Of a DNA stretch of 64,000 bases, positions 1,338 through 64,000 are shown one piece after another (the stretch's first letter is position 1; each line of letters begins with the position of its first letter). The notes under the pieces are model-generated. The model had not been told where the DNA came from, ran no database searches, and was given only the letters and a program-made list of their open reading frames with translations. The DNA lies in the NCBI RefSeq assembly GCF_009708005.2, contig NZ_CP052757.1, forward strand, positions 2,790,001-2,854,000. Reading direction: 5' to 3'. The stretch is from Cellulosimicrobium protaetiae. Its GTDB lineage: Bacteria; Actinomycetota; Actinomycetes; Actinomycetales; Cellulomonadaceae. The translations under genes were made by a program, and so were the position numbers.

Positions 1338-2063
1338 ATGACCGTCGAGAAGGGCGCCCCGCCCCGTCCACCCGTCGCCGCCGACCCGTCGACCGCGGTG
1401 ACGGACGCGGGTGCGCTCGTGGCGCGCGTGCGCGCGCTCGTGGAGCGGTCACGGGGCGGGCGGGTGGTCGTCGGGATCACGGGCAGCCCCGGCGCGGGCA
1501 AGACGACGCTCGCGACGCGGCTCGTCGCAGCGCTTGGCACCGACGCGATGCACCTGCCGATGGACGGCTTCCACCTCGCGAACGCGACGCTCGACCGGCT
1601 CGGCCGCCACGACCGCAAGGGCGCGCTCGACACGTTCGACGGCGCGGGCTTCGTCGCGCTGCTGCGCCGCGTGCGCGAGGAGCGCGACCGCACCGTGTAC
1701 GCGCCGTCGTTCCACCGCGAGGTCGACGAGCCCGTGGCGGGGGAGATCGCCGTCGACCCGGCGCACCGCGTCGTCGTGGTCGAGGGGAACTACCTCCTCG
1801 TCGCGGAGGACCCCTGGGGGCGGGTGCGCGGCCTGCTCGACGAGGCGTGGTTCTGCAGCACCGGCGGCGCCGAGCGCGAGCGCCGCCTCGTCGACCGGCA
1901 CACGCGCCACGGCCGCACGGTCGAGGCCGCGACCGCCTGGGCGAGCGAGGTCGACGGGCGCAACGCGCTCCTCGTCGAGTCGACGCGGCCGCGCGCCGAC
2001 CTCGTCGTGTCCGGCGCGATCCCGTTCGACGCCCAACCTCAGGCGAGGTCGACGTCGGCGTAG
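1338..2063 (+). CDS. P-loop nucleoside/nucleotide kinase-family protein (YggC/FrcK-like)
   Basis: The 241-residue protein has a Walker A motif GSPGAGKT at residues 49-56, then the MDGFH segment near 77 and a conserved VVVEGNYLL near 145, an arrangement shared with pantothenate kinase/uridine kinase relatives such as E. coli YggC and the FrcK kinase. It probably phosphorylates a small sugar, nucleoside or pantothenate-like molecule with ATP; the substrate cannot be read from sequence. The last 25 bases overlap the convergent EEP-family gene tail to tail. The ATG is preceded by a CAGACT -10-like hexamer six bases upstream and no ribosome site, suggesting a leaderless start. Confidence 0.8.
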   Translation: MTVEKGAPPRPPVAADPSTAVTDAGALVARVRALVERSRGGRVVVGITGSPGAGKTTLATRLVAALGTDAMHLPMDGFHLANATLDRLGRHDRKGALDTFDGAGFVALLRRVREERDRTVYAPSFHREVDEPVAGEIAVDPAHRVVVVEGNYLLVAEDPWGRVRGLLDEAWFCSTGGAERERRLVDRHTRHGRTVEAATAWASEVDGRNALLVESTRPRADLVVSGAIPFDAQPQARSTSA

Positions 2064-3178
2064 AGCGCGGCGTGGTCGGACGCGGCGTGCGTCGCCGACG
2101 TCATCGTGTCGTAGTGGGGGAACAGGGTCCCGTTCTTGCCGCCCCACACGCCCATGCGGAACACGGACCCGCCGACGGTGCGGTCGAACAGTGCGGGGGA
2201 CAGCAGCACGTAGTCGATCTTCTGGCTGGCGGTCCCGTTGCCGTACGTGCCCGGCCGGCCGTCGCCCCGGAACGCCGGGTGCTCGCTCACGTCGCGCAGG
2301 TCGGTCCGCTCCAGCAGGGGCCGCAGCGGGGTGGACGCCGGGGTGTCGTTGAGGTCGCCCACGACCACGACGTTCTCCTCCCCGCGGGCCCGCAGCGCGG
2401 CGTAGATCGCGGCGGTGCGGGTCGCCTGGCGGCGCCGGGTCGCGTCGGACTCGGCCTGCGTGCCGTAGCCCTTGGACTTGAAGTGGTTGACCAGCACGGT
2501 GAGCGTGCCACCGCCGGGCAGCTCGACGACGTACTCCGGGCAGTCGCGCCCGAACACGAGGCGCCCGCGCGAGTCGCGGTCGTCGACGTGCGAGCGCACG
2601 GTCCCGATCCGGTACGGGCGCGTCGTGAGCAGCCCGACGTCGATCCCGCGGTCGTCGTTGCCGTCGATGACCATGACGTGCGGGTAGACGGGGCGCCCGG
2701 CGCGCGTGACGACGCCCGCGTCCGTGAAGTGCTTGAGCGCGACCCGGCTCTCCGCCTCGACGACGGCCAGGACGTCCGCGTCGACGTCGGCCACGACGCG
2801 AGCGGTGTGCGTCATGGCGAGCTCGTCGACCCGGTCCTTGACCAGGTCCACCCACCCGACCCAGTCGCCCCGCCCGGTCGCGACGACCTCGGTGCGCGCC
2901 GTGCCCGCCGCCTGCGAGCCCGTGCGGCGCACGAGCCGCCCGCGCACCTGACGCAGCACCGCGAACGCGGCGGCGTCCGAGCGCAGCAGGCCGAGCGTCT
3001 CCAGGTGCTCCAGGATCTCCGCCCGCACGTCCGGGCCGTACTGCTCCTCGGCGATGAGCGCGTTGACCCGGGCGTGCGCGGCCAGGACCGCGTTGCCGCC
3101 CGTGAGCGGGCCCGCCATCGCGCGCGGGCGCTCGAACAGGTTCTCGACGTTGAACGTCCCGATCCGGAACCTCGCCAT
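2039..3178 (-). CDS. Endonuclease/exonuclease/phosphatase (EEP) family protein
   Basis: A 379-residue EEP-fold hydrolase. Visible motifs are FNVENLF at residues 8-14, where the E is a metal ligand, VVVGDLNDTP near 280 with the catalytic D and N, and SDHAALYADV at the carboxyl end with the catalytic His. Members cleave phosphodiester or phosphomonoester bonds in nucleic acids, inositol phosphates or lipids. No signal peptide is seen, so a cytosolic role is likely. I chose the ATG at 3178 because GGGAGA lies upstream at Shine-Dalgarno distance and the EEP fold begins immediately; the reading frame stays open far upstream but without conserved sequence. Its 3' end overlaps the kinase gene by 25 bases. 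Confidence 0.85.
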   Translation of the reverse strand: MARFRIGTFNVENLFERPRAMAGPLTGGNAVLAAHARVNALIAEEQYGPDVRAEILEHLETLGLLRSDAAAFAVLRQVRGRLVRRTGSQAAGTARTEVVATGRGDWVGWVDLVKDRVDELAMTHTARVVADVDADVLAVVEAESRVALKHFTDAGVVTRAGRPVYPHVMVIDGNDDRGIDVGLLTTRPYRIGTVRSHVDDRDSRGRLVFGRDCPEYVVELPGGGTLTVLVNHFKSKGYGTQAESDATRRRQATRTAAIYAALRARGEENVVVVGDLNDTPASTPLRPLLERTDLRDVSEHPAFRGDGRPGTYGNGTASQKIDYVLLSPALFDRTVGGSVFRMGVWGGKNGTLFPHYDTMTSATHAASDHAALYADVDLA

Positions 3179-3300
3179 CGTGGTCTCCCTCGCGCGGTCC
3201 GGGACCCGAGGTGGGTGCGAGACGCGGACCGGCTCTACAGGGAGGGAGGGGCACGGCGCCCGGTCCCGGACGTCGAGGCGTGGGACGCCGGGAGGGGAAG

Positions 3301-3329
3301 CCCGGCCGGTGTCACCGCCACCGGCCGGG
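3301..3329 (-). terminator. Stem-loop terminator of the HNH gene
   Basis: Perfect 10-bp inverted repeat CCCGGCCGGT / ACCGGCCGGG with a nine-base loop, starting 37 bases beyond the stop of the HNH gene. There is no U-tract, as for the other terminators in this window. Confidence 0.6.
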
Positions 3330-5467: not shown

Positions 5468-6990
5468 GGCTCCGGGGTCGGTGCGGGCTGCGGCGGGGTC
5501 GGCGCGGCCTCGAGCGGCAGGTGCACGAAGAACCGCGTGTCGCCGGGCACGGACGTCACCGTGAGGTCGCCGTGGTGCTTGTTGACCACGATCCGCCACG
5601 AGATGTCGAGGCCGAGACCGGTGCCCTGCCCGACCGGCTTGGTCGTGAAGAACGGCTCGAAGATGCGGGGGCGGACGTCGTCGGGGATGCCGGGGCCCGT
5701 GTCGGCGATCTCGACCTCGGCACGGTCGTCGACGCGGCGGGTCGTGACCGTGAGCGTGCCGGTCCCGCCCATGGCCTGCGCGGCGTTCTCGACGAGGTTG
5801 GTCCACACCTGGTTGAGCTCGGCCGCGTAGACGGGCACGGGCGGCAGGTCGGGGGCGTAGCGGCGCACGACGTCGACTCCCGCGAGCGAGTGGTCGAGCA
5901 TCGTCAGCGTGGAGTCGAGCAGCTCGTGCAGGTCGACGGGGCGGAACGGCGCGCGGTCGAGCTGGGAGTACTGCCGCGCCGCGCCGACGAGGGAGGAGAT
6001 GCGCACGGTGGCGTCCTCGATCTCGGCCATGAGCTGCTCGGTCTCGATCGTGTACGCGAGCCAGCTCACCGCGCCCGTGAGCGCGCCGGCGTCGACGCGC
6101 TCGGCGACGCGGTCGAGCCAGGGCTCGTCGATCCCGGCCTGGACGAGCGCGGGGGAGACGCGCCAGCCCTCACGGAGGCCGTGGTCGTCGAGCCAGTCGG
6201 TGAGGCGGTCCTCCAGGTCGGAGGTCTCCAGCGCGCCGACGGCGTCGGCCGTCCGGGTGTCCGCGTAGCGCTCGAGCGCCTCCTCCTGGAGCCGGACGAG
6301 CTCGGCCAGGGTGGCCCGGTCGTAGGGCCCGTCGGCGATGAGCGCGAGCTTGTGCCGCATCGCGGCGACGCGCTCGCGCAGGGTCCCGGTCGCGCGCACC
6401 GCGGCGGCGGCCGGGTTGTTGAGCTCGTGCGTCAGGCCCGCCGACAGCGAGCCGAGGGCGAGCAGCCGCTCGCGCTGACCGACGAGCTGCTGCGCGTCAC
6501 GCGTGCCCCAGAACACGCCCTCGAGCAGGTGCACCGCCATGGGGAACCACTCGGTCATGAGCTTGGCGAAGTCGTGCGCCTCGAGCACGAAGAAGCGGGA
6601 GGGCTCCAGGGCGCGCGCCGAGTGCAGGTACGTCTGCGGGAGCCGGTCGCCGAGGTAGGCGTTCCATGCGCCGAGGTACACGCCGACCTGGCGGGTGCGC
6701 GAGACCTCGACCTCGTCCTCGCCGACGCGCCGGTAGAGGGCGACGCCGCCGTCGAGCATGACGTAGAACGCCTCGGCGGGCGTGCCCTCGTGGAACAGCC
6801 AGCCCGCGTCGTGCCGCTCGACGTGCCCCGTCGCGCACAGCCACGCGAGCTGGTCGTCGGTGAGGTGCTCGAACAGGAACGTGGCGCGCAGCTCGTCGAC
6901 GTCGCAGGGCAGCCACCCGCGGGCGGCAGCGGTGGTCGTGGAGGCGCCCTCGGCGGGCGGGGTCGTGGTCGGTTCCTCGGTGCTGGTCAC
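5464..6990 (-). CDS. Cyclic-nucleotide-domain sensor histidine kinase
   Basis: A 508-residue soluble kinase. Residues ~30-150 form a cNMP-binding/CRP-like sensor domain (DAGWLFHEGTPAEAFYVMLDGGVALYRR). The kinase core follows: the dimerisation helix with phosphoacceptor His188 in LTHELNNPAAAA, the N-box NLVENAAQAMG, the G1 box DTGPGIP, the F-box FEPFFTTK and the G2 box GTGLGLDIS. The HELNNP form of the H-box is typical of NtrB/HATPase-type kinases. No transmembrane segment is present. The GTG start has GGAGG upstream. It lies 53 bases after the REC-thioredoxin-reductase fusion gene, the likely partner receiver, and overlaps LtrA downstream. Confidence 0.88.
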   Translation of the reverse strand: MTSTEEPTTTPPAEGASTTTAAARGWLPCDVDELRATFLFEHLTDDQLAWLCATGHVERHDAGWLFHEGTPAEAFYVMLDGGVALYRRVGEDEVEVSRTRQVGVYLGAWNAYLGDRLPQTYLHSARALEPSRFFVLEAHDFAKLMTEWFPMAVHLLEGVFWGTRDAQQLVGQRERLLALGSLSAGLTHELNNPAAAAVRATGTLRERVAAMRHKLALIADGPYDRATLAELVRLQEEALERYADTRTADAVGALETSDLEDRLTDWLDDHGLREGWRVSPALVQAGIDEPWLDRVAERVDAGALTGAVSWLAYTIETEQLMAEIEDATVRISSLVGAARQYSQLDRAPFRPVDLHELLDSTLTMLDHSLAGVDVVRRYAPDLPPVPVYAAELNQVWTNLVENAAQAMGGTGTLTVTTRRVDDRAEVEIADTGPGIPDDVRPRIFEPFFTTKPVGQGTGLGLDISWRIVVNKHHGDLTVTSVPGDTRFFVHLPLEAAPTPPQPAPTPEP

Positions 6991-7043: not shown

Positions 7044-8720
7044 TCAGAGCTGTTCGAGGTAGCGGTGCACGAGCATGACGGCCATGGCGCCCTCGCCCAC
7101 GGCGGACGCGACGCGCTTGGCGGACTCCGAGCGCACGTCCCCGGCGGCGAACACGCCGGGGACGGACGTCTCGAGGTGGTAGGGCGGGCGGTCGAGCGAC
7201 CACCCGGCGGGCAGGGCGCCGTCGCGCAGCAGGTCGGGGCCGGCGAGCACGTACCCGCGCGGGTCGCGCGCGACGACGCCGTCGAGCCAGTCGGTGCGGG
7301 GCGCGGCGCCGATGAAGACGAACGCCCAGCCGCACTCGACGCGCGTGGTCGTGCCGGTGTCGACGTCGTGCAGCTCGAGGTGCTCCAGGTGGTCGTCGCC
7401 CGAGGCCGAGACGACCTCGGTGCGGGTCAGGACGCGCACGCGCGGGTGCGCCTCGACCTGCTCGACGAGGTAGGACGACATGGACCGGGCGAGGGCGTCG
7501 CCCCGGACCACGAGCGTGACCCGCTTGGCCTCGCGCGCGAGGTACAGGGCCGCCTGGCCGGCCGAGTTGGCGCCGCCGACGACGTACACCTCCTGGTCAT
7601 GGCACGCGGTGGCCTCCGTGAGCGCCGACCCGTAGAACACACCGCGCCCGACGAGGTCGCCGAGCCCCGGGCCGTCGAGCAGCCGGTACGACACGCCCGA
7701 CGCGAGGATGACGGTGTGCGCGTCGATCGACGTGCCGTCCGGGAAGCGCACGCTGCGCGCGGGACCTTCCACGTCGAGCTCGACCGCGTCGCGGGTCGTG
7801 ACGATCTCCGCGCCGAACCGCACGGCCTGGCGTCGCGCGCGCTCGGCGAGCTGCGCGCCCGAGATCCCGTCGGGGAAGCCGAGGTAGTTGTCGATGCGCG
7901 AGCTCTGCCCGGCCTGCCCGCCCGTGGCCGTGCGCTCGACGAGCACCGTCCGCAGCCCTTCGGACGCGCCGTAGAGCGCGGCGCTGAGCCCGGCGGGGCC
8001 GCCTCCCACGACGACGAGGTCGTAGAAGTCGGCCGTGGGCCGGGTGGCGAGCCCGACGCGCTCGGCGAGCGTGGCGTCGTCGGGCGCGACGAGCGCCTCG
8101 CCCTCGGGGGTGACCACGAGGGGGAGGGTCTCGCCGTCGGTCTGGGCGGCGGTGAGCAGCCGCGCGCCCTCGGCGGACTCCGACGGGTACCAGCGGTAGG
8201 GCACGCGGTTGCGCGCGAGGAACTCGCGCACCTGCGACGAGCGCGCCGACCACCGGTGCCCGACGACGACCGTCTCGGCCGGGCGGCGCCGGTCCGTGGC
8301 GGACCACGCCTCGAGCTGGGCGTCCACGACCGGGTACAGCTTCTCCTCGGGCGGGTCCCACGGCTTGAGCAGGTAGTAGTCGAGGTCGACGACGTTGATA
8401 GCCTCGATGGCGGCCTCGGTGTCCGCGTAGGCGGTCAGCAGGACGCGCCGCGCGGCGGGGAAGAGGTCCATCGCCTGCTCGAGGAGCTCGACCCCGGTCA
8501 TGCCGGGCATGCGGTGGTCGGCGAGCACGACGGCGACGTCCTCGCCCCGCAGGGCGAGCTCGCGCAGCGCGTCGAGCGTCTCGGCCCCCGACTCGGCGCG
8601 CACGATGCGGTACCGGTCGCCGTAGCGGCGGCGCAGGTCGCGCGCGACCGCGCGCGATACCCCGGGGTCGTCGTCCACCGTGACGATGGCGGGGCGGGTC
8701 GTCGCGACGGTCGGTTCCAC
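7044..8720 (-). CDS. Response-regulator receiver fused to a thioredoxin-reductase-like FAD oxidoreductase
   Basis: A 558-residue three-part protein. Residues ~10-125 are a receiver domain with acidic pocket D16-D18, phosphoacceptor Asp68 (VVLADHRMPG), Thr96 and Lys119 (LLKPW). Residues ~140-210 look like a thioredoxin/glutaredoxin fold lacking the CxxC. Residues ~215-558 are a thioredoxin-reductase-type flavoprotein: FAD site VVGGGPAGLSAA, NADPH site VVGGANSAGQAA, and GVFAAGDV near the end. The position of the redox CATC of true TrxB reads SALT, so dithiol exchange looks impossible. GTG at 8720 follows a GAGGAGG site. The kinase encoded next is the obvious candidate to phosphorylate Asp68. 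Such fusions are known, their function is not. Confidence 0.85.
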   Translation of the reverse strand: MEPTVATTRPAIVTVDDDPGVSRAVARDLRRRYGDRYRIVRAESGAETLDALRELALRGEDVAVVLADHRMPGMTGVELLEQAMDLFPAARRVLLTAYADTEAAIEAINVVDLDYYLLKPWDPPEEKLYPVVDAQLEAWSATDRRRPAETVVVGHRWSARSSQVREFLARNRVPYRWYPSESAEGARLLTAAQTDGETLPLVVTPEGEALVAPDDATLAERVGLATRPTADFYDLVVVGGGPAGLSAALYGASEGLRTVLVERTATGGQAGQSSRIDNYLGFPDGISGAQLAERARRQAVRFGAEIVTTRDAVELDVEGPARSVRFPDGTSIDAHTVILASGVSYRLLDGPGLGDLVGRGVFYGSALTEATACHDQEVYVVGGANSAGQAALYLAREAKRVTLVVRGDALARSMSSYLVEQVEAHPRVRVLTRTEVVSASGDDHLEHLELHDVDTGTTTRVECGWAFVFIGAAPRTDWLDGVVARDPRGYVLAGPDLLRDGALPAGWSLDRPPYHLETSVPGVFAAGDVRSESAKRVASAVGEGAMAVMLVHRYLEQL

Positions 8721-8888
8721 GCGGCCTCCTCGGGCGTGCCCGCGCGGTGCGGGCCACGTGTCATCCTCCCCCCGCGCCCCATCCACGTCCACGGATCGCG
8801 TGCACGGGAGCCTGCGCGCCGTTCTCGCGGGCCGCGCTCTCGGAGGACCGCCGGGGTGCGAGCGCTCGTGGGCCGGTCCGGTGGAGCG

Positions 8889-10464: not shown

Positions 10465-10985
10465 GGCGCGGTGGCGAGGGCGAGCGCGCGCTCCTCGGCC
10501 GGGATGCGGAAACGGGCCAGGAGCACGGCGTTGAGCACCGTGAACGCGAGCGCCGTGACCCAGCACGAGTGCACCAGCGGGAGGGCGAACCCCTCGACGA
10601 CCACCGCGACGTAGTTGGGGTGCCGCAGCCACCGGTACGGGCCGCGCGCCACGAGGGGGAGGCCGGGCACGACGATGACGCGCGTGTTCCACCGCGGCCC
10701 GAGCGTCGCGATGCACCACCAGCGCAGGCCCTGGCTCGCGAGCACGAGCGCGAGCATGGGCCAGCCGAGCCACGGCAGGAACGGCCGGTCCGCGAGCCAC
10801 GCCTCGGCGACGCACGCGAGCAGGAGCCCGGTGTGCAGGGCGACCATCGCGGGGAAGTGCCCCCGGCCCGACTCGACGCCGCCGCGCGCGAAGGACCAGC
10901 GGGCGTTGCGCGCGGACACGACGAGCTCCGCGAGCCGTTCGAGGGCCGTGGCACCGACGAGCGCGACGTACCAGGCGAGGCTCAT
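10461..10985 (-). CDS. Isoprenylcysteine carboxyl methyltransferase-family protein (SrsB-like)
   Basis: A 174-residue membrane methyltransferase. The ICMT signature GPYRWLRHPNYVAVVVEGFALPLV sits at residues ~115-140, with four or five hydrophobic helices around it. Type III PKS operons commonly carry such a protein, which O-methylates the phenolic lipid (SrsB in S. griseus); the assignment here is by context. The start ATG overlaps the PKS stop as ATGA and its own stop overlaps the flavoprotein start as GTGA. Confidence 0.85.
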   Translation of the reverse strand: MSLAWYVALVGATALERLAELVVSARNARWSFARGGVESGRGHFPAMVALHTGLLLACVAEAWLADRPFLPWLGWPMLALVLASQGLRWWCIATLGPRWNTRVIVVPGLPLVARGPYRWLRHPNYVAVVVEGFALPLVHSCWVTALAFTVLNAVLLARFRIPAEERALALATAP

Positions 10986-12136: not shown

Positions 12137-12231
12137 GCCCGCATCGTCCCACCGGCCGGGTCGGCCCGCGCGGGGGAGAGGCCCGGTCGCGGCCCGGGGC
12201 TCCGGCGCGGGCGCACGGGCCGTCGGCGGGC

Positions 12232-15210: not shown

Positions 15211-16155
15211 TCAGCGCGAGGCCCGGACGAGCCCGTCGACGACGGCCGTCGCACCGGGGGAGGGACGTTCGCCGTAGGTGACCGCGAGCACCCGCCGTGC
15301 CGCCCCCGGCAGGGCCTGCGCGCGCACGCGTGCGTCCCGGTGAGCACGCAGCGCCAGGGCCGGCAGCAGCGACACCCCGACCCCCGACCCGACGAGTGCC
15401 TGCACCGCGACGTAGTCGTCCGTCTCGAACGCGATCCGGGGTGTGAAGCCCGCCCGTTCGCACCGGCCCACCAGGTCGGCCCGGCACCGTTCGCAGCCCG
15501 CGATCCAGTCCGCGTCGGAGAGCGTCGCGAGGTCGCCCGGCACGGCCGAGGGGACCTCGTCCACCTCGCCGGCGCCGGTCCCGACCTCCCCGGCGTCGGC
15601 CGAGCCACGGTCGCGATCGGTTCGACCAGCAGCCGGGCGCACGAGGAACAGCTCCTCGTCGAGCACGCGTACCGCGCGCAGGCCCTCGACGTCGACCGGA
15701 GAGCGGTCGTGCTCGAACACGAGCGCGACGTCCACGGCTCCGCGCCGCAGCGCGTCCAGCGCCTCCGGCGGTTCCGCCTCCACCAGGCCCACGCCCAGGC
15801 CCGGATGGTCGCGCGCGAGCCGTGCCACGACGTCGGGCACCAGCGTCGCGAGCGCCGACGGGAACGCCGCCAGGCGCACCCGGCCCGCGGACAGCGACAC
15901 CAGCGCGTCCAGCTCGTCCCGCGCCGCGCCCACGCGCCCCAGGATCTCCTCCGCCCGTGCGGCGAGGAGCCGCCCCGCCGCCGTCAGCCGCACCCCGCGC
16001 CCGTGCCGCTCCAGCAGCGGCACGCCCACCTCCGCCTCCAGGCGCGCCAGGTGGTGGCTCACCGAGGGCTGTGCGTAGTGCAGCGACCGCGCGGCCGCCG
16101 TCACCGACCCCTCGCGCGCCACCGCCGCCAGCACGCGCAGCCGCGTCAGGTCCAT
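15211..16155 (-). CDS. LysR-family transcriptional regulator
   Basis: A 314-residue regulator with the winged helix at the amino end (LRVLAAVAREGSVTAAARSLHYAQPSVSHHLARLEAEVG) and a periplasmic-binding-like effector half from about residue 90. A stretch of about 25 acidic/Gly residues near 205-225 is an unusual insert in the effector domain. It is divergent from the threonine dehydratase gene and a LysR-type box lies between them, so it probably controls that gene and itself. The ATG at 16155 starts directly with MDLTRLRVL and has GGGAG upstream. Confidence 0.9.
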   Translation of the reverse strand: MDLTRLRVLAAVAREGSVTAAARSLHYAQPSVSHHLARLEAEVGVPLLERHGRGVRLTAAGRLLAARAEEILGRVGAARDELDALVSLSAGRVRLAAFPSALATLVPDVVARLARDHPGLGVGLVEAEPPEALDALRRGAVDVALVFEHDRSPVDVEGLRAVRVLDEELFLVRPAAGRTDRDRGSADAGEVGTGAGEVDEVPSAVPGDLATLSDADWIAGCERCRADLVGRCERAGFTPRIAFETDDYVAVQALVGSGVGVSLLPALALRAHRDARVRAQALPGAARRVLAVTYGERPSPGATAVVDGLVRASR

Positions 16156-18010: not shown

Positions 18011-19432
18011 ATGAGCAGCCAGGGCCTCACCCAGTCCACCGACCGCATGCGCGACGCCGGAGTCGCCCCCGCCGCCATCGACGTCTTCACCCGCTTCTAC
18101 CGGCTCCTCGAGTCCGGCGCGACCGGCATGATTCCCGAGTCCGACGTCGAACCCCTCACCGACGTCACCCACCGCGACGCGCTCGACGTCCCCGACGACG
18201 CCGCCCGCGACGCCCTCCAGCGCACCGCGATCATCAAGCTCAACGGCGGACTCGGCACCTCCATGGGCATGGACCGCGCCAAGTCCCTCCTCACCGTGCG
18301 CGACGCCGACCCGCAGCGGCCCGACAGCGGCCCCCTCACCTTCCTCGACGTCATCGTCGCCCAGGTCCGCGCCGCCCGGCACGCCACCGGAGCACCCCTG
18401 CCGCTGCTCCTCATGAACTCGTTCCGCACCCAGGGCGACACCCTCGCCGCGCTCGCCCCGCACGACGACCTCGCGGTAGGCGACCTCCCCCTCGACTTCC
18501 TGCAGAACCGCGAGCCCAAGCTCCTCGCGAGCGACCTCACGCCCGTCGACTGGCCCGCCGACCCCGAGCTCGAGTGGTGCCCGCCCGGACACGGTGACCT
18601 GTACACCGCCCTGTTCGCCTCCGGCGCGCTGCGCGCGCTGCTCGACGCCGGGTACCGGTACGCCAGCGTCTCCAACTCCGACAACCTCGGCGCCGCCCCC
18701 GACGCCGCCATGGCCGGCTGGTTCGCCGCCAGCGGCGCCCCCTTCGCCGCCGAGGTCGCCCGCCGCACCCCCGCCGACCGCAAGGGCGGTCACCTCGTCG
18801 TGCGCCGCAGCGACGGCCGCCTCGTCCTGCGCGAGACCGCGCAGACCCCGCAGGACGACCAGGACGCCGCCGCCGACATCAGCCGCCACCGGTACTTCAA
18901 CACCAACAACCTCTGGTTCTCCCTCGAGGCGCTCGCGGCCGAGCTCGACCGCACCGGCGGTGTGCTCGAGCTCCCGCTCATCAAGAACACCAAGACCGTC
19001 GACCCGACCGACCCGTCGTCGCCCGAGGTCGTGCAGATCGAGTCCGCCATGGGCGCCGCCGTCGAGGTGTTCGACGGCGCCGTCGCCATCGAGGTGGGCC
19101 GCGACCGCTTCCTGCCCGTCAAGACGACGAACGACCTCCTCGTCCTGCGCTCCGACGTCTACGACCTCGACGACCGCTACCGGTTCGTCGCCCGGACCGA
19201 CGCGCCGCTCGTCGACCTCGACCCGGCGTACTACAAGACCATCGCCGCGTTCGACGCCCGGTTCGACGACGGCACCCCGTCCCTGCGCGCGGCGCGGTCG
19301 CTCACGGTCCGGGGGGACTGGACCTTCGGCTCCGGCGTCACCGTGACCGGCGACGCCGAGCTCGCCGACCCGGGCGGCTCCTCGCGCGTCCCCGACGGCG
19401 CCGTCGTCGGCCCGGACGGGGTCAGCGACTGA
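18011..19432 (+). CDS. UTP-glucose-1-phosphate uridylyltransferase (UGP2 type)
   Basis: A 473-residue enzyme of the eukaryote-like UGP family, not the short GalU type. IIKLNGGLGTSMGMDRAKSLL is the UTP-binding loop, LLLMNSFRTQGDT and VSNSDNLGAAPD (metal/UMP site) follow, FNTNNLWFSLEAL is the sugar site, and a left-handed beta-helix begins around residue 400 (SLTVRGDWTFGSGVTVTGDAEL). It makes UDP-glucose for glycans, trehalose and wall polymers. A strong palindromic terminator lies downstream, shared with the convergent YigZ gene. Confidence 0.9.
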   Translation: MSSQGLTQSTDRMRDAGVAPAAIDVFTRFYRLLESGATGMIPESDVEPLTDVTHRDALDVPDDAARDALQRTAIIKLNGGLGTSMGMDRAKSLLTVRDADPQRPDSGPLTFLDVIVAQVRAARHATGAPLPLLLMNSFRTQGDTLAALAPHDDLAVGDLPLDFLQNREPKLLASDLTPVDWPADPELEWCPPGHGDLYTALFASGALRALLDAGYRYASVSNSDNLGAAPDAAMAGWFAASGAPFAAEVARRTPADRKGGHLVVRRSDGRLVLRETAQTPQDDQDAAADISRHRYFNTNNLWFSLEALAAELDRTGGVLELPLIKNTKTVDPTDPSSPEVVQIESAMGAAVEVFDGAVAIEVGRDRFLPVKTTNDLLVLRSDVYDLDDRYRFVARTDAPLVDLDPAYYKTIAAFDARFDDGTPSLRAARSLTVRGDWTFGSGVTVTGDAELADPGGSSRVPDGAVVGPDGVSD

Positions 19433-20373: not shown

Positions 20374-22719
<2,346 letters not shown>

Positions 22720-23079
22720 GTTGAGCGAGCCCCACGGGGTGCGCGTCGGGGGAGCGACGAGCGCGGCTCCGGCCTCGACCGCGCGGTCGGTGGCGACCCG
22801 GGCGTCGTCCACCTCGAACGCGACCCGCAGGCGGCCGGCCACCTGGCGCCCGACCTCCACGTCGTCGATCGCCCGCTTGTGCGCGGGGTTGGCGATCTCG
22901 AGCGTCGCGTGCCCGACGTCGAGGATCGCGACCCGGTCGTCCTCGCCGTCGGCGTAGGCGATGCGCTCCGGGAGGCCGAGGACGTCGCGGTAGAAGGCGA
23001 GGGCGGCGTCGTAGTCGTCGGCCTCCACGACGAGGCGGAGCTGGCGGACGGCGGGGCGCGGCAGGCTCTCGTCGGTCAT

Positions 23080-44558: not shown

Positions 44559-44654
44559 TCACGTCTCCTGACCTGCAACGACACCGCCCGAAGGGTTGCC
44601 CCCGGAGGGTGTCGCGCGGCAGGATCGGGGGACCGACGACGACGGGGGAGCACA

Positions 44655-46911: not shown

Positions 46912-47202
46912 GAGCGCCTCCTCGGGGAACGACCCACCCGAGGAACCCGACCAGCCCGGGGGAGAGGCCTCGACGCGGCGACAACGCCGCAGCAGGGCGA
47001 CCGGGCGGGGGAGAGGCGTGCGCCTCTTCGACGGTCTCGACGAGCGGGGACGACGAACGCACCGTACGCCGCCCGACCCACACCCACCAGAGGGCGGCAC
47101 GCGACCACCGCCGCCCCGGCACCACCGCGCAGGCACCCCCGAGCCGGTCGACGCGCCGACCAGATGGTCCGCGCGGACGCCGGCCCGGGGGAGCATCGGA
47201 CC

Positions 47203-48275: not shown

Positions 48276-48303
48276 AACGCCGATAATGTACATTATGTCA
48301 TTT
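48276..48303 (+). other. dif: dif-like XerC/XerD recombination site (chromosome terminus)
   Basis: The 28-bp segment matches E. coli dif at 19 of 28 positions, including the contiguous cores ATAATGTA and ATTATGT; the centre ATAATGTACATTAT (48283-48296) is a perfect palindrome split by a six-base central region. It is very AT-rich against 74% GC surroundings, intergenic, and coincides with the switch in GGGGGAG polarity. XerCD-FtsK resolves chromosome dimers at such a site. Confidence 0.85.
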
Positions 48304-48904: not shown

Positions 48905-49051
48905 GCACGGCCCGCACGAGTGCGGCGCGCCGTCCTCCCCACCGTCCGGCGACGACACCTGTGGCTCCCCCGAGCACGTCGCCCACCGGCTCCCCTTCAC
49001 GTCTCCCCGCCCCGGCGTCCACCACGCCTGCGTGTGTGCGAGCCTGGGCAC

Positions 49052-49756
49052 GTGCCCGAGGTCGACACGCCCCAGATGCCCTTCCCTCCCCCGCCGCTGC
49101 CCGACGTCGTCGGCGCCCGCGAACGCACCGTGCACGTCGTGACCCACCCCGAGGCGACGCACCACGTCGAGGGGCTCGTCGGGGGCGTCCACGACTCCGA
49201 CCTCACAGCCGCGGGCGTGCGACAGGCACTCCGCCTCGCGGCCGCCCTGCGCGCCCGGCTCCCGCGCGACGCCGCGGTCGACCTCGTCACGTCCGACCTC
49301 CTGCGCACGCGCCGCACCGCCACCGCGATCGGCGAGGCGCTCGGCGTCGCGCCACGCCTGGACGCCCGGCTGCGCGAGTCGTCCTACGGCGAGGCGGGCG
49401 GGCGTCCGCAGGAATGGCTCGACGCGCGGTTCGTCCCGCCGCCGGCCGTGGGCGACCGCCTGCGCCACGACCTGGGTGTCGCGGGCGCGGAGACGAGGCT
49501 CGACGTCGCCCTGCGGGTGTACGCGGCCACGACGGACCTGCTCCACCACGACATCGACCACCAGGTGGTCGTCACGCACGGGTTCGCGGCGACGTTCGTG
49601 GTCGCCGCGTGGATCGGGATGCCCGTCGAGGCGGCGGGGCACGTCACGTTCCCCGTCCCCTCCGGGAGCATCACGACCCTGCGCGAGGACGGGTTCTTCC
49701 ACAACCGCGGGGTGCTGAGCGTCGGGGACGTCGCGCACCTGGACGAGGGACGCTGA
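49052..49756 (+). CDS. Histidine phosphatase-superfamily protein with altered RHG motif
   Basis: A 234-residue branch-1 phosphatase-fold protein. The usual RHG(E) is VTHPEA here: the Arg is Thr and the Gly is Pro, although the catalytic His and Glu remain. LVTSDLLRTRRTATAI provides the second Arg, RESSYGEAGGRPQEW the acid region and VVVTHGFAATFVVAAW the second His. The family removes phosphates from small molecules or proteins; the altered pocket may change or abolish this. The GTG start is uncertain and an ATG lies eight codons later. The gap 48905-49051 has nothing else. Confidence 0.8.
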   Translation: MPEVDTPQMPFPPPPLPDVVGARERTVHVVTHPEATHHVEGLVGGVHDSDLTAAGVRQALRLAAALRARLPRDAAVDLVTSDLLRTRRTATAIGEALGVAPRLDARLRESSYGEAGGRPQEWLDARFVPPPAVGDRLRHDLGVAGAETRLDVALRVYAATTDLLHHDIDHQVVVTHGFAATFVVAAWIGMPVEAAGHVTFPVPSGSITTLREDGFFHNRGVLSVGDVAHLDEGR

Positions 49757-49864: not shown

Positions 49865-50926
49865 ATGGTCGCCCCGCCCCGCCTCGAGCGGATCACCGTC
49901 GCCGAGGCGGCCGACCGCTACCTCGCGTCCGTCGTCGCCCAGACGCTGCGCGGCATCCTGTCGCCGACGACGCGCCGCAGCTACGAACGAGACGTGACCG
50001 AGTTCGCGCGGCTCGCCGGGCCGGCCCGGGTGCTGGACGACGTCACCGGGGAGGACGTCGACGACGTCCTGCTGCGCTACCAGACCACCCCCGACGGCCG
50101 GTACGCGGACGCGTCGCGCAAGCCGGGGAGCTCGGGCCGCTCCGCCGCGACGGTGAACCGCTTCCGCCAGTCCGTCACCCGCTTCTTCACCCACGCCGCG
50201 CGCGAGGGCTGGGTCCAGGCCGACCCGATGCAGTGGGCCTCTCCCCCGGCACGCCTGCGCGACGGGCTGCGCGTCGCGCGCACGGCACTGTCCGCGGGCT
50301 CCGCGGCGTCGCTGCTCGAGGTCTCCGCGGCACGGGCGCAGGGAGACCCGGCAGCGACCCGTCGCGACCAGGACCTGCAGGTCCGCGACCGTCTCGTCGT
50401 CGCGCTCCTGCTCGTCCTCGGCCCGCGCGTGTCCGAGCTCGAGCGCGCGAACCTCGACGACTTCTCCCGCGAGCCCGACCAGACGCGCTGGCGCATCCAG
50501 GGCAAGGGCGGCCACGTGCGCACGGTCACCCTCTCTCCCCCGCTGGCCACCGCGCTCGAGGAGTATCTGGAGCGTCTGCGCCCCGCGCTCCTCGCCCGCC
50601 GCCCCGACGACCCGGACGCGCAGCGCGCGCTCCTGCTCTCCTGGCGCGGGCGGCGCATCGACGCGCAGGCGGTGCGCGGGCTCCTGCGGCGCTGCATCGA
50701 ACGCATGCCCGCACAGCTCCGGCGCGAGGCCACGCCGCACGCGCTGCGCCACACGACCGCGACGCTGCTCGCCGCCGAGGGCTGGGACGTCAAGGTCGTC
50801 GCCGAGCTGCTCGGGCACGCGTCGATCGCGACCACGGGCGTGTACCTCGACCGGATCGAGGGCGAGCTTGCCGCCGCGATCCGGTCGCACCCCCTGTCCG
50901 CGGCGCTCGAGCCCGCCGAGGCCTGA
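49865..50926 (+). CDS. Tyrosine recombinase/integrase, DNA-damage inducible
   Basis: A 353-residue recombinase. A SAM-like amino domain spans ~12-125 (YLASVVAQTLRGILSPTTRRSYERDVTEFARL). The catalytic domain has Arg in LGPRVSELE, Lys in GKGGHVRTVTL, HALRH and GH in LLGHASIATTGVY, with the nucleophile Tyr in GVYLDRI, so all six residues are present. It resembles Xer/integrase proteins; it is longer than a typical ~300-residue XerC/D. AAGGAGG precedes the ATG. It lies 1.6 kb from dif and no phage or ICE genes surround it. Confidence 0.9.
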   Translation: MVAPPRLERITVAEAADRYLASVVAQTLRGILSPTTRRSYERDVTEFARLAGPARVLDDVTGEDVDDVLLRYQTTPDGRYADASRKPGSSGRSAATVNRFRQSVTRFFTHAAREGWVQADPMQWASPPARLRDGLRVARTALSAGSAASLLEVSAARAQGDPAATRRDQDLQVRDRLVVALLLVLGPRVSELERANLDDFSREPDQTRWRIQGKGGHVRTVTLSPPLATALEEYLERLRPALLARRPDDPDAQRALLLSWRGRRIDAQAVRGLLRRCIERMPAQLRREATPHALRHTTATLLAAEGWDVKVVAELLGHASIATTGVYLDRIEGELAAAIRSHPLSAALEPAEA

Positions 50927-52892: not shown

Positions 52893-54146
52893 GTGCACCT
52901 GTCCGCCGACTCCGCCCTGCGCACCGCCCGACGTCTCCTCTCCCGCGCGCTCGTGGTCGCCGTCGCGGCACCCGTCACGGTCGCGGGCGTCCTCGTCGCC
53001 GCCGACGCGATCCGTAAGCGCCGCAACACGACCGAGGCGTCGTTCCCCCGCTCCTCCCCCGCCGACGTCGAGGTCGCAGGGACCACGACCACGGTCTTCA
53101 CCTACGGCGAGGATCTGTACCGCGAGATGCTCGCGGCGATCCGCGGGGCACGACGCCGGATCCTGCTCGAGACGTACATCTGGAAGGCGGACGCGCTCGG
53201 CGAGAAGTTCAAGGCGGCGCTCGTCGAGGCCAGCGACCGCGGTGTCGAGGTGTTCGTCGTCTACGACGGCTTCGCGAACCTCGTCGTCCCGCAGTCGTTC
53301 TTCGACCTGCCGGAGCCGATCCACGTCATCCGCTACCCGGTGTTCCGCCCGGGCGTCCTCATGCTCAACGTGCGCAAGTCGGGCCGGGACCACCGCAAGA
53401 TCCTCGTCGTCGACGACGAGATCGCGTTCGTCGGCGGGTACAACATCGGCGCCCTCTACGCGACGCAGTGGCGCGACACGCACGTGCGCCTCGTCGGACC
53501 GAGCGCGTGGGAGCTGCGCAACGCGTTCGTGGACTTCTGGAACGCCAACCGGAAGCCCGGCCAGCCGCTCCTCGCCGACCCTGGCTCGATGCACTGGGAG
53601 CCGCGCCTGCGCGCGGCACGCAACGCGCCCGCGCACCTCGTCTTCCCGATCCGCGGCATCTACCTCGACGCGATCGACCGGGCGAGCTCGCACGTGTACA
53701 TCACGCAGGCGTACTTCATCCCGGACCGCGAGATCCTCGCAGCGCTCCTCGCGGCCGCGGCGCGCGGGGTCGACGTGCGGGTCCTGGTGCCCGAGCGGTC
53801 CAACCACGTGCTCGCCGACTGGCTGTCGCGCGGGCTGTACACGGCGCTGCTCAGGGGCGGGGTGCGCATCCACCTGTACCGGGACGCGATGGTGCACGCG
53901 AAGACCGCGACGATCGACGGCGCGTGGACCACGATCGGGACGGCGAACATCGACCGGCTCTCCCTCACCGGCAACTACGAGGTGAACCTCGAGATCACCG
54001 ACGCCGGGGTGGCCGCGCAGATGGAGAAGGTCTTCGACGTCGACCTGTCGAACTCGCGCGAGCTGACCCTCGCCGAGTGGGACGCGCGGTCGGTGGCGGC
54101 CAAGCTCAGCGAGGTCGTCCTCACGCCGCTGCGCCCCCTGCTCTGA
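52893..54146 (+). CDS. Phospholipase D-family phosphatidyltransferase (cardiolipin-synthase-like)
   Basis: A 417-residue PLD-fold enzyme with an amino-terminal helix (ALVVAVAAPVTVAGVLVAADAI) and two HKD motifs: DHRKILVVDDEIAFVGGYNIG near 160 and VHAKTATIDGAWTTIGTANIDRLS near 335. Both contain H-x-K-x4-D, so the active site is complete. It probably makes cardiolipin or transfers a phosphatidyl group in the membrane. The GTG start, preceded by a leaderless promoter, is preferred over an ATG nine codons upstream that would lie inside the promoter. Confidence 0.85.
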   Translation: MHLSADSALRTARRLLSRALVVAVAAPVTVAGVLVAADAIRKRRNTTEASFPRSSPADVEVAGTTTTVFTYGEDLYREMLAAIRGARRRILLETYIWKADALGEKFKAALVEASDRGVEVFVVYDGFANLVVPQSFFDLPEPIHVIRYPVFRPGVLMLNVRKSGRDHRKILVVDDEIAFVGGYNIGALYATQWRDTHVRLVGPSAWELRNAFVDFWNANRKPGQPLLADPGSMHWEPRLRAARNAPAHLVFPIRGIYLDAIDRASSHVYITQAYFIPDREILAALLAAAARGVDVRVLVPERSNHVLADWLSRGLYTALLRGGVRIHLYRDAMVHAKTATIDGAWTTIGTANIDRLSLTGNYEVNLEITDAGVAAQMEKVFDVDLSNSRELTLAEWDARSVAAKLSEVVLTPLRPLL

Positions 54147-55165: not shown

Positions 55166-58100
55166 TCAGCCCACCACGAGGACCAGGTCACCGCCCTCGA
55201 GCTGCTGCACCGCGCCGATCGCGACGCGCCGGACCGTGCCCGCGACCGGCGTCGTGATCGCGGCCTCCATCTTCATCGCCTCGACCGTCGCCACGGTCTG
55301 CCCCGCCTCGACGACGTCGCCGGTCACGACGACCGGCGTCACCGCGCCCGCGAACGGCGCCGCGACCTGCCCCGGCTGCGCCGGGTCCGCCTTCTCCGCC
55401 GAGCGCACGTCGACGTCGACCGCCCGGTCGCGCACCTGGATCGGGCGCAGCTGACCGTTGAGGGTGAACATCACGGTGCGCATGCCCCGCTCGTCCGGCG
55501 TACCGATCGCCTCGAGGCCCACGAGCAGGCGCACGCCCTTGCCGAGCGCGACCGCGACCTCCTGACCCGGCTCGAGCCCGTACAGGTACGTGGGGGTGTC
55601 GAGCACGGACACGTCCCCGTACGCCTGGCGTACCTGCTCGAACTCCTTGGTCGGCCCCGCGAACAGCAGGTGGTTCAGCCGCCGACGACGCACCTCGCCG
55701 GGCTGCGCGAGCTCGGCCTCGTCCTCCGAGGAGAGCGGCGTCACGCCGCCGCGCGGGGCGCGGCCGGCGAGCGCGCGCGAGCGGAACGGCTCCGGCCAGC
55801 CCCCGGGCGGGTCGCCGAGCTCGCCGCCCAGGAACCCGATCACCGAGTCCGGGATGTCGAAGGACTGCGGGTCGGCCGCGAACTCCGCCGGGTCCGCGCC
55901 CGCCGCCACGAGGTGCAGGGCGAGGTCCCCCACGACCTTCGACGACGGCGTCACCTTCACCAGGCGCCCGAGGATGCGGTCCGCCGCGGCGTAGGTCGCC
56001 TCGATCTGCTCGAACTTGTCCCCGAGGCCCAGCGCGATCGCCTGCTGACGCAGGTTCGACAGCTGCCCGCCCGGGATCTCGTGCTCGTACACGCGACCCG
56101 TCGGCCCGGGCAGACCGGACTCGAACGGCGCGTAGACGCGGCGCACCGCCTCCCAGTAGGGCTCCAGGTCAGCGACCGCAGCCAGCGACAGGCCCGTGTC
56201 GCGCTCGGTGTGCTCGAGGCCCGCGACGAGCGCCGACAGCGACGGCTGGCTCGTCGTCCCCGCCATGGCGGCGCTCGCGGCGTCCACGGCGTCGACGCCT
56301 GCGGCCGCCGCGGCCAGCAGGGTGGCCATCTGCCCGCCCGAGGTGTCGTGCGTGTGCAGGTGCACGGGCAGGTCGAAGCGCTCGCGCAGGGCCGTCACGA
56401 GCCGCGACGCCGCCGCGGGCCGCAGGAGCCCGGCCATGTCCTTGATCGCGAGCACGTGCGCGCCGGCGTCGACGATGCGGTCCGCAAGGCGCAGGTAGTA
56501 GTCGAGCGTGTACAGGTCCTCGGCGGGGTCGAGCAGGTTGCCCGTGTAGCACAGGGCGACCTCGGCGACCGTGGTGCCCGTGGCGCGCACGGCCTCGATC
56601 GCGGGGCGCATCTGGTCGACGTCGTTGAGCGCGTCGAAGATGCGGAACACGTCGATGCCCGTCGCGGCGGCCTCCTCGACGAACGCCTCGGTGACGCGCG
56701 TCGGGTACGGCGTGTACCCGACGGTGTTGCGACCGCGCAGCAGCATCTGGATCGCGAGGTTCGGCATCGCCTCGCGCAGGGTCGCGAGCCGCTCCCACGG
56801 GTCCTCGCCGAGGAAGCGCAGCGCGACGTCGTACGTGGCCCCGCCCCAGGCCTCGACGGACCACAGCTGCGGCGTGGCGCGCGCGACGTAGGGCGCGACG
56901 GCGGCCAGGTCGTGCGTGCGCACGCGCGTCGCGAGCAGCGACTGGTGGGCGTCGCGGAACGTGGTGTCGGTGACGCGCAGGCGCTGCTCGGCGCGCAGCG
57001 CGTGCGCGAAGCCCTCGGGGCCGAGCTCGAGGAGCTGCTGGCGCGTGCCGGGCGGCGGCGCGACCGACAGGTCGAGCGCGGGCAGCTTCGTCGCAGGGTC
57101 GGTGGTGCGCTGCGGCTCGCCGTGCGGGCGGTTGACCGTGGCGTCCCCCACGAACGCCAGCAGGCGCGTGCCGCGGTCGGCGCTCTCGCGCGCGGCGAGG
57201 AGTTCGGGCCGCTCGTCGATGAACGACGTCGCGACGTTGCCCGCGACGAACTCCGGGTCGGCGAGCACGGCCTGGAGGAACGGGATGTTGGTGCGGATGC
57301 CGCGGATGCGGAACTCGGCGAGCGCACGTCGGGCGCGGCGGACCGCCGTCGGGAAGTCACGGCCGCGGCACGTGAGCTTGACGAGCATCGAGTCGAAATG
57401 GCCCGACACGACGGACCCGGCGGTCGCGGTCGCGCCGTCGAGCCGCACGCCCGCCCCGCCCGGGGAGCGGTAGGCGATGATGCGCCCCGTGTCGGGGCGG
57501 AACCCGTTCGCCGGGTCCTCGGTCGTGATGCGGGTCTGCAGGGCGGCGCCGTTGACGCGCACGTCCTCCTGCCGGATCCCGAGGTCCTCCAGCGTCTCGC
57601 CCGACGCGATGCGCATCTGCGCGGACACGAGGTCGACGTCGGTGACCTCCTCGGTCACGGTGTGCTCGACCTGGATGCGCGGGTTCATCTCGATGAACAC
57701 GTGCTTCCCGGCACGCTCCCCCACCGTGTCCACGAGGAACTCGACGGTGCCCGCGTTCTGGTACCCGATGTGCCGGGCGAACCGCACCGCGTCCGCGCAC
57801 AACGCGTCGCGGATCGCGGGGTCGAGGTTCGGCGCGGGTGCGATCTCGACGACCTTCTGGTGGCGGCGCTGCAACGAGCAGTCCCGCTCGTACAGGTGCA
57901 CGACGTTCCCGGCGCCGTCGGCGAGGATCTGCACCTCGATGTGCCGCGGGCGCAGCACCGCCTGCTCGAGGAAAACCGTCGGGTCGCCGAACGCCCCGTC
58001 GGCCTCGCGCATCGCGGCGGCGAGCGACTCGGGCAGGTCCTCGCGCGCGTCCACGCGGCGCATGCCTCGACCCCCGCCGCCGGCGACCGCCTTGACGAAC

Positions 58101-59549: not shown

Positions 59550-60041
59550 CTACTCGTCCACCGAGAAGTCCTCGGGCTGGACGTGGTCGAGGAAGTCCCG
59601 GAACTTCTCGACCTCCTCCTGCTGCGCCACGTCGACGACCTCGACGCCCGCCGTCGCGACGACCTCGGCCGAGCAGAGCACGGGGCTGCCGGTGCGCACG
59701 GCGACCGCGATGGCGTCCGACGCGCGAGAGTCGAGCCTCACCCCGTTGCTCAGGACGAGCTCGGCGAAGAAGATCCCGCCGTCGAGGGCGACGATCTCGG
59801 CGCGTTCCAGGCGCACTCCGACCGCGTCGAGCAGGTCCCGCAGCAGGTCGTGCGTCATGGGCCGCGGCGTCGGCAGCCCGGCCTGCGCCATCGCGATGGC
59901 GCTGGCCTCCCGCGGGCCGATGACGATCGGCACGACGAGCTCGGACGCGTCGTCCAGGAGCAGCACGACGATCTCCTGGTCGCGCTGCTGCTGACGGACC
60001 CCCAGCACCTCGACCGGGACCATCGGGACGTCGTCGCTCAC
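59550..60041 (-). CDS. Bifunctional nuclease-family protein (Rv1829-like)
   Basis: A 163-residue BFN-domain protein (VPVEVLGVRQQQRDQEIVVLLLDDASELVVPIVIGPREASAIAMAQAG, ... RPMTHDLLRDLLDAVGVRLERAEIVALDGGIFFAELVL, ... DSRASDAIAVAVRTGSPVLCSAEVV). The family name comes from a plant nuclease; in bacteria the role is unproven. The GTG start follows TACCGT by six bases, and GGGGGA in that gap could be a ribosome site. Confidence 0.85.
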   Translation of the reverse strand: MSDDVPMVPVEVLGVRQQQRDQEIVVLLLDDASELVVPIVIGPREASAIAMAQAGLPTPRPMTHDLLRDLLDAVGVRLERAEIVALDGGIFFAELVLSNGVRLDSRASDAIAVAVRTGSPVLCSAEVVATAGVEVVDVAQQEEVEKFRDFLDHVQPEDFSVDE

Positions 60042-60053
60042 TCCCCCACGGTA
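60042..60053 (-). promoter_or_regulatory. -10 promoter of the bifunctional nuclease gene
   Basis: On the minus strand TACCGT occupies 60048-60053, six bases before the GTG at 60041. Confidence 0.5.
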
Positions 60054-62848: not shown

Positions 62849-62850
62849 GC

Positions 62851-63183
62851 TCAGGCCTTGAAGATGTGGCGCCGGATCGCGGCGGCGTTGGAGAAGATGC
62901 GGATGCCGAGGACGACGACGACGGCGGTGGAGAGCTGGCTCCCGACACCGAGCTGGTCGCCGAGGAAGACGATGAGCGCGGCGACCACGACGTTCGACAG
63001 GAAGGAGACGAGGAAGACCTTGTCGTCGAACAGGCCGTCGAGGCGCGCTCGCAGGCCGCCGAACAGGGCGTCGAGCGCGGCCACGACCGCGATGGGCAGG
63101 TAGGGCTGCAGCGACACCGGCACCGTAGGTTGCAGGACGAGGCCCGCGACGATGCCCACCACCAGTCCGACGACTGCGATCAT
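62851..63183 (-). CDS. Small basic family protein (DUF1290)
   Basis: A 110-residue hydrophobic protein: VVGLVVGIVAGLVLQPTVPVSLQPYLPIAVVAALDALFGGLRARLDGLFDDKVFLVSFLSNVVVAALIVFLGDQLGVG is the family core, with three to four transmembrane helices. It matches Rv1824. The start overlaps the preceding DUF881 stop as ATGA. Role unknown, usually beside DUF881 and division genes. Confidence 0.92.
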   Translation of the reverse strand: MIAVVGLVVGIVAGLVLQPTVPVSLQPYLPIAVVAALDALFGGLRARLDGLFDDKVFLVSFLSNVVVAALIVFLGDQLGVGSQLSTAVVVVLGIRIFSNAAAIRRHIFKA

Positions 63184-64000
63184 TCGACGTTCTCCTGCCC
63201 TGTCTCGTGCGGTGCCGGGTCCGTCACGGACCCGTCGTTCTGGCCGTCCGTCGTGCCGTCGGTGCTCCCGGCGGGCGCGTCGGAGTCTACGGTCGCTGCC
63301 GGTGCTTGCGCGAAGAACAGCGTGGGCGCGGACCTGCCCGGCAGATCGATCCGGCTCTGGGTGGTGACGCTCGACCGGATGCCGTACTGGGTGCCCAGGA
63401 TCTGCAGGTAGTCGGACGTGCCGGACCGCAGGAGCGAGGTGCGCATCGCGTCGGGGTCTCCGACCGCCTCGACACGGTAGGGACCGACGAGGGGCTGCAG
63501 GTCGACCAGCACGGCGTCCCCTGCGCTGCGGATCGCGGAGAGGCCCGTGAGGCGCTGGTCGTTGATCGCGACCGCTTCCGCTCCCCCGGCCCAGAGGGCG
63601 TTGACGACGCGCTGCAGGTCGGAGTCGTGCACGAGCGAGTTCGCGTCCGCGTCGTCGGACGACAGCCCGCCGCTGGTGTCGTCGAGCGTCACGACCACGC
63701 CCTGCCCCTCGACCGCCTGCGTCCCGGTGAGCGCACCCTCCGCCTGCAGACCCTGGAGCACGTCGGTGCTCGCCCCGCTCAACGCCTCCCCCTGCAGCTG
63801 CTCGATCTCGCCGGACAGCTCCGCACCGCGCGCAGCCAGGTCCTCGGCGGCGGCCTGCCGGGACAGGATCTCCTGCTCGAGCGTCTCGCGCGCCGCGATC
63901 ACCCCGGGCTGCGGCGCGCGCAGCTCGACCGCAGCGGCCGTGGTGACGACGCCGAGCACGACGGCGAGGGCGACGAGGACCACGGTGCCGGTGCGGCCCC
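63180..64000 (-). CDS. DUF881-domain membrane protein, 5' end cut by the window
   Basis: The frame is open to the right edge, so the start is probably outside; a GTG at 63983 is the first visible candidate. Visible are a transmembrane helix (VLVALAVVLGVVTTAAAVEL), a coiled-coil segment and the DUF881 domain (GQGVVVTLDDTSGG, VVNALWAGGAEAVAINDQRLTGLSAIRSAGDAVLVD). It corresponds to Rv1823. The carboxyl tail is Gly/Asp/Thr-rich. Confidence 0.85.
   Translation of the reverse strand, partial: GRTGTVVLVALAVVLGVVTTAAAVELRAPQPGVIAARETLEQEILSRQAAAEDLAARGAELSGEIEQLQGEALSGASTDVLQGLQAEGALTGTQAVEGQGVVVTLDDTSGGLSSDDADANSLVHDSDLQRVVNALWAGGAEAVAINDQRLTGLSAIRSAGDAVLVDLQPLVGPYRVEAVGDPDAMRTSLLRSGTSDYLQILGTQYGIRSSVTTQSRIDLPGRSAPTLFFAQAPAATVDSDAPAGSTDGTTDGQNDGSVTDPAPHETGQENVE

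Follow-up and report, generated by a model that had tools for sequence, protein, structure and literature searches.

Within a 64-kb stretch of the Cellulosimicrobium protaetiae chromosome (the window, C1:2790001-2854000), the heptamer GGGGGAG reverses strand at a dif-like site. The genome consists of contig C1 (4,631,595 bases) and contig C2 (152,586 bases), and the word points toward dif in the window, along the sampled chromosome and at dif loci across the actinomycetes. What has been observed is the word with its strand preference, the change of strand within 1.8 kb of dif, the occurrence of the word across actinomycetes, how few wrong-way copies there are, and an FtsK that carries a gamma domain. 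Judged from sequence, GGGGGAG, often set within CGGGGGAG and accompanied in some relatives by the weaker variant AGGGGAG, is probably the actinobacterial counterpart of the FtsK orienting polar sequences (KOPS) that guide this DNA pump.

The dif-like site, where motif polarity reverses, spans 28 bp at 48276..48303 on the + strand, with the core GATAATGTACATTATGTCA at 48282-48300. A search over 19 positions with one mismatch allowed returned this single site in the genome, and in 46 of 59 genomes of the order the core likewise occurs once. GGGGGAG is present 35 times in the window, whereas dinucleotide shuffles average 18.8 copies and none of 100 reached 35. Left of 48276 there are 22 + and 4 - copies, and right of 48303 there are 0 + and 9 - (Fisher p = 1.0e-5). 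These counts, and the nearest flanking copies at 47187 (+) and 48965 (-), reproduce exactly those of the initial annotation. GC skew followed in 2-kb steps across the window shows no switch at dif. The 8-mer CGGGGGAG is more extreme, with 18/0 copies to the left and 0/6 to the right of dif (24 of 24 toward it), and it has the top score among the 1094 window 8-mers that lean toward dif at all and have 15 or more copies. Among the 7-mers, CGGGGGA (5.2) scores slightly above GGGGGAG (4.6).

The forward copies that point toward dif lie at 1739..1745, which is the outermost on the left, 6151..6157, 8120..8126, 10655..10661, 12172..12178, 15256..15262, 20132..20138, 22257..22263, 22748..22754, 25174..25180, 26058..26064, 29815..29821, 35929..35935, 37719..37725, 41239..41245, 41652..41658, 42441..42447, 44644..44650, 45321..45327, 46958..46964, 47007..47013 and 47187..47193, the last ahead of dif. 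Reverse copies pointing toward dif begin past it at 48965..48971 and continue at 49086..49092, 50241..50247, 50535..50541, 53054..53060, 57716..57722, 60041..60047, 63581..63587 and 63786..63792, the outermost on the right. The four exceptions, pointing away from dif, are reverse copies at 8766..8772, 18485..18491, 28159..28165 and 33077..33083. By approximate gene calls, the 31 right-way copies comprise 11 in genes of the same direction, 12 in genes of the opposite direction and 8 between genes, which bears out the earlier remark that copies lie inside genes on either strand. The wrong-way copies are divided between same-direction genes (2), an opposite-direction gene (1) and an intergenic position (1).

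Polarity on C1 was followed in 100 stretches of 20 kb together with the window (101 pieces, 2.06 Mb); 12 further stretches extended the sample to 2.30 Mb. Copies prefer the + strand between about 385 kb and dif (2838.3 kb) and the - strand elsewhere, so that the strand preference switches at dif on the genome-wide scale that the initial annotation had anticipated. With the 380-400 kb stretch excluded and the divide chosen after the strand map had been seen, 539 copies point toward dif and 33 away (94%) in 2.04 Mb sampled of 4.63 Mb. Over the 2.06 Mb, a divide at oriC (491 kb) gives 540:48 and one at 385.2 kb gives 554:34. GGGGGAG has the strongest polarity score among the 4419 7-mers that occur at least 30 times and show some lean. 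The word has the marks of the architecture imparting sequences (AIMS), being strand-biased with more copies on leading strands, whether its own switch (539:33) or oriC (540:48) is taken as the divide. Its abundance also rises toward the terminus, the rise being limited to the last tens of kb: right-way copies reach 0.52/kb less than 25 kb from dif, 0.33 at 25-50 kb and 0.20-0.33 beyond 50 kb. Like KOPS, it is a polar word that converges on dif. The densest 8-kb groups in the 2.30 Mb are located at 380.5 kb (the divergence, 11 copies), 2831 kb (dif, 10), 3666 kb and 496 kb; the last two, C1:3666000-3674000 and C1:496000-504000, hold 9 copies each, and the second overlaps the parS cluster.

The polarity belongs to a precise word. 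One-letter variants have a right-way share of 0.79 (AGGGGAG), 0.69 (GGGGGAC) or 0.47-0.64 (the others), against 0.94 for GGGGGAG, and this loss of bias on a single-base change is as expected for a word read by a protein. The base 5' of the heptamer is mostly C (349 of 539). Counting the 3' flanking base as part of the motif is not supported, since that base is free. The 8-mer CGGGGGAG was likewise tried as the core; it counts 349:11 against 539:33, yet it ranks only 184 of 18580 in over-representation given its 7-mers, and the heptamer was therefore kept. Right-way copies exceed the number expected from shorter words (539 against 357), whereas wrong-way copies fall short of it (33 against 57).

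Composition and codon use do not account for these numbers. GC skew per piece averages 0.002 (range -0.051 to 0.070 over the 101 pieces) and was rejected as the cause; base composition leads one to expect 52% of copies toward dif, and the 94% seen is the excess over skew that the initial annotation had looked for. Genes were called with our own script, without annotation, giving 1882 genes that cover 86% of the sampled sequence. Synonymous-codon shuffling of these genes yields about 342 wrong-way copies, whereas 23 are seen. Codon use is rejected by this shuffle, in line with the earlier claim that codon bias offers no explanation. Right-way copies stay close to the shuffle and wrong-way copies are scarce, so the signal is mostly one of avoidance or loss, and selection acts mainly through the removal of wrong-way copies. 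Between genes, right-way copies outnumber wrong-way copies 96:15.

The same polarity is found at dif loci of other actinomycetes. At least 119 such loci, each of up to 8 kb, were fetched from named genomes by the dif pattern and not by the motif; related species among them are not independent. GGGGGAG is the top 7-mer, with 465 copies toward dif and 5 away (467:5 with overlaps; 99%). The following counts refer to the 119 loci listed, in which base composition predicts 53% toward dif. The word is carried by 111 of them, 106 with right-way copies only, and is absent from 8. Group labels were assigned from 80 titles, and 50 of the 119 loci are therefore unlisted as to group. The toward:away counts are 102:0 in Microbacteriaceae, 50:1 in the Oerskovia/Cellulosimicrobium group, 25:0 in Micrococcaceae, 26:0 in Nocardia/Rhodococcus/Mycobacterium, 10:0 in Corynebacterium (6 loci), 18:0 in Pseudonocardiales, 18:1 in Geodermatophilaceae, 22:1 in the Nocardioides/Kribbella group, 5:1 in Actinomyces/Trueperella, 13:0 in three other loci and 178:1 in the 50 unlisted loci. 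GGGGGAG is polar without being the top-scoring 7-mer in Corynebacterium, in Actinomycetales (5:1) and in the mixed group of other loci. The variant AGGGGAG, at 170:10, is about as polar as GGGGGAG, and it is as frequent in Corynebacterium, Pseudonocardiales and the relatives of Nocardia. The word read in these three groups may accordingly be better written (A/G)GGGGAG. Neither GGGCAGGG nor GGGAAGGG has consistent polarity across the actinomycete groups. The density of GGGGGAG peaks at 0.72-0.80/kb at 0.5-2 kb from dif and is 0.24/kb within 500 bp.

Escherichia coli K-12 provides a yardstick. Over 100 kb round its dif, the canonical KOPS word GGGNAGGG counts 13:0, Chi (GCTGGTGG) 14:3 and GGGGGAG 3:1. 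The canonical word is not the one found here, where GGGGGAG stands with a free 3' base.

A candidate reader is encoded in the same genome. The FtsK gamma winged-helix domain (FtsK_gamma) gives a single match in the whole genome, at C1:3183054-3183230, with 83.6 bits and above cut-off, and the closest relatives of this FtsK are Cellulosimicrobium FtsK proteins. The domain matches the solved structures 2j5o, 2ve8/2ve9 and 2j5p (2j5o/2ve8 at E ~3.5e-6), which we take to be the FtsK gamma domains of Pseudomonas aeruginosa and E. coli. The domain scores above cut-off in each of the 59 genomes of the class that were searched, and the best 30 of these 59 loci were aligned with our own sequence. In these 31 sequences the recognition helix is nearly invariant. 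S766, Q769, R781 and E787 are kept in 31 of 31; the departures from the solved domain, which include contact positions, are A (30) or T (1) in place of N777, G in place of A780 (31), D in place of E784 (31) and K in place of R778 (28). Among these positions, S766, Q769 and N777 are described as KOPS-reading residues in PMC9764985, as are R1300, E1303 and E1306 of E. coli in PMC2680272. Our own alignment suggests that E. coli R1300 and E1303 correspond to 781 and 784.

The proposed mechanism follows from these elements. The winged-helix gamma domain of FtsK would read GGGGGAG in one orientation, the septal pump would load facing dif and move DNA toward it, and XerCD would resolve dimers there. 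Selection against wrong-way copies would then stem from mis-directed pumping. If FtsK does read GGGGGAG, the word is the missing guide for the phylum to which the mycobacteria and the main antibiotic producers belong, and the altered helix together with the altered word forms a clean pair for the study of DNA choice by the gamma domain.

On the origin side, the pattern departs from the replication map. The gene dnaA occupies C1:490991-491476 (- strand). DnaA boxes are found at 482-492 kb and sites resembling parS at 495-501 kb; the dnaA-gyrA region together with the parS sites covers C1 478-501 kb. Set against dnaA, a comparison proposed in the initial annotation, the second switch is not at dnaA/oriC: it falls between 384,784 (-) and 385,568 (+), within gcvP and on the dnaN side of dnaA, some 106 kb away. 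The strands are 22 + and 3 - at 385.2-491 kb, and 4 + and 46 - at 180-385.2 kb. Copies at 385-491 kb face against the fork, so that two causes of polarity become separable.

The displacement recurs in the family: in 4 of the 5 genomes considered, the switch lies on the dnaN side of dnaA, at a distance of 39-106 kb. The relative G115 switches about 39 kb from dnaA, with 11 - and 1 + copies in between, and G039 switches at 65-67 kb, again inside gcvP, which places the switch in this gene in two genera. For G069, as for G081, G047, G125, G238 and G139, positions and not letters were at hand; its switch, judged from + places only, is about 62 kb from dnaA on the dnaN side, and the copies listed for G081 end 112 kb before dnaA. 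Beyond this family, the switch in G072 comes 3-14 kb from dnaA, and one side is poorly polar (23:8); G047 and G125 switch near dnaA as judged from + places, and G036 has no copy in 45 kb around dnaA. Gene order from dnaA to our own 458-kb region is colinear in our genome, G115 and G036, with the block inverted in G072. A recent inversion of the dnaA-458 kb stretch as cause of the displacement is therefore not seen, and an older event beyond it may have occurred. No common word of 9 or more bases, as a shared cis element might leave, was found across four divergence regions. A local peak of codon identity in gcvP sits at the motif copy in a well conserved stretch, and we tentatively put it down to a glycine-rich cofactor loop.

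A bolder reading of this displacement, tentative and in our view doubtful, is that GGGGGAG maps a segregation polarity with its own start locus, distinct from the replication origin. The divergence would be kept at a distance of 39-106 kb from dnaA, on its dnaN side and in gcvP in two genera, the poles of pumping and of replication would differ, and selection would act on wrong-way copies even beside the origin. The displaced divergence would separate the direction of replication from that of segregation on a natural chromosome, and it is the part worth following. Among the titles surveyed, no literature matched a displaced origin-side switch. A parallel at the terminus comes from P. aeruginosa, where, according to PMC6199493, segregation and not replication ends at dif.

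Several observations weigh against a word dedicated to FtsK and dif. The strand bias itself, which by the definition of AIMS in PMC5993296 grows toward the terminus, shows no steady rise toward dif, at 39:4 within 50 kb, 55:0 at 50-200 kb and 205:16 beyond 1600 kb, and right-way copies in genes, at 504, are barely above the roughly 467 of the shuffle. A changed helix accompanies a changed word, which is a correlation, and the gamma sequences and the motif come mostly from different genomes. Moreover, the word is polar where dif is not recognised. C2 contains no dif-like site (the best candidate has 6 mismatches), yet left of 126.2 kb the - strand carries 32 of 33 copies and right of it the + strand carries 10 of 10, so that they point to both contig ends. 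Their divergence (126061-126446) adjoins a ParA-type gene at 125,002-125,940. The last 3 kb at the ends of C2 have no shared inverted 16-mer and no direct overlap; C2 may be a linear plasmid or circular. Likewise, G238, a Streptomyces-like genome with 6 SsgA matches in one contig of 7.1 Mb, presumably linear, in which no dif was found, carries 50 copies on the - strand and 8 on the + strand within its first 176 kb; judged from the places listed, the word is thus directed outward, to the end of the contig. Such polarity would suit a word directed at the terminus no less than one directed at dif. PMC5993296 defines AIMS with the terminus "or telomere", and because that definition includes the telomere, outward pointing in G238 is not unexpected.

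The most probable alternative is that GGGGGAG is a terminus-directed AIMS read by a machine other than FtsK, such as a recombination nuclease that stops at a Chi-like word, SMC or a replication-restart system. Polar words need not be KOPS, as Chi illustrates in E. coli, the function of most AIMS is given as unknown in PMC5993296, and the polarity of C2 without a recognisable dif suits this alternative. We nonetheless regard it as unlikely. A bias of 94% along the chromosome and 99% at the listed dif loci is nearer to that of KOPS (13:0) than to that of Chi (14:3). Corynebacteria lack a RecBCD pathway according to PMC3350403, yet the word is polar on Corynebacterium chromosomes and at their dif loci. 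A word tied to fork direction would, moreover, be wrong-way near the origin, given that the divergence in the family is 39-106 kb from dnaA.

A second alternative grants FtsK only a partial share, with GGGGGAG serving as a general translocase address that plasmid or conjugative FtsK-like pumps also use. C2 speaks for it, being polar, diverging beside a ParA gene and encoding a protein with a weak FtsK_SpoIIIE match. However, the chromosome pattern and the switch at dif need no plasmid pump, and the one gamma-domain match of the whole genome is on C1, which makes this option quite improbable. That the pattern has no reader and merely arises from strand-biased mutation, skewed base composition or codon use is scarcely credible: many k-mers are weakly polar (103 7-mers score above 5), genes running the same way as the motif cover more sequence (1218 kb against 765 kb) and the backward control GAGGGGG leans too (178:126 in our genome, 79:43 in the listed loci), but composition and, for wrong-way copies, synonymous shuffling fall far from the observed counts, one-letter variants lose most of the bias, and polarity departs from replication direction between 385 and 491 kb (22:3). 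Guidance of FtsK stays the favoured role of GGGGGAG.

The word is not a new motif. It is an AIMS already known from actinobacteria; the octamers (T/C)GGGGGAG and G(A/T/C)GGGGGA are attributed to Hendrickson and Lawrence 2006 in the passages seen of PMC2830990 and PMC3164646. In the parts consulted of PMC2830990, PMC3022926, PMC3164646, PMC3219685 and PMC3350403, these octamers are plotted to locate dif in Corynebacterium aurimucosum, C. pseudotuberculosis, C. ulcerans, C. variabile and C. resistens, and C. aurimucosum is credited with 856 leading and 61 lagging copies, the two octamer families taken together. The initial annotation had offered the heptamer as a candidate KOPS equivalent for this lineage. 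That proposal gains from the genome-wide switch and the excess bias, whereas its novelty falls away, the word being in print as AIMS and its finding here a rediscovery. The passages on AIMS in Corynebacterium do not link the word to FtsK, and those that deal with the FtsK proteins of C. glutamicum and mycobacteria (PMC11898615, PMC13277299) discuss KOPS as a class, naming no word for actinobacteria. Among the papers listed on FtsK and KOPS in actinobacteria, surveyed mostly by title, none was recognised as testing GGGGGAG with FtsK.

Compared with the actinobacterial AIMS as described in those passages, the system shares the word, the leading-strand bias and the use in finding dif; it differs in that the divergence point of the C. 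protaetiae genome is not at oriC. E. coli KOPS (GGGNAGGG) and the SpoIIIE recognition sequence (SRS) of Bacillus subtilis (GAGAAGGG), as given in the part seen of PMC9764985, are likewise G-rich, polar, directed toward dif and matched by the same gamma-domain family. The word is denser here, with about 1 copy per 3.6 kb against 1 per 13 kb for KOPS in E. coli (PMC5357621, in part). Unlike E. coli KOPS, it also has a 7-bp core without the 3' GGG, and the helix differs at N777, A780 and E784. In Lactococcus lactis, the KOPS is the heptamer GAAGAAG. Both systems have a lineage-specific heptamer and a diverged FtsK gamma domain, with the difference that the word is A-rich in Lactococcus (PMC5357621) and G-rich in C. 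protaetiae.

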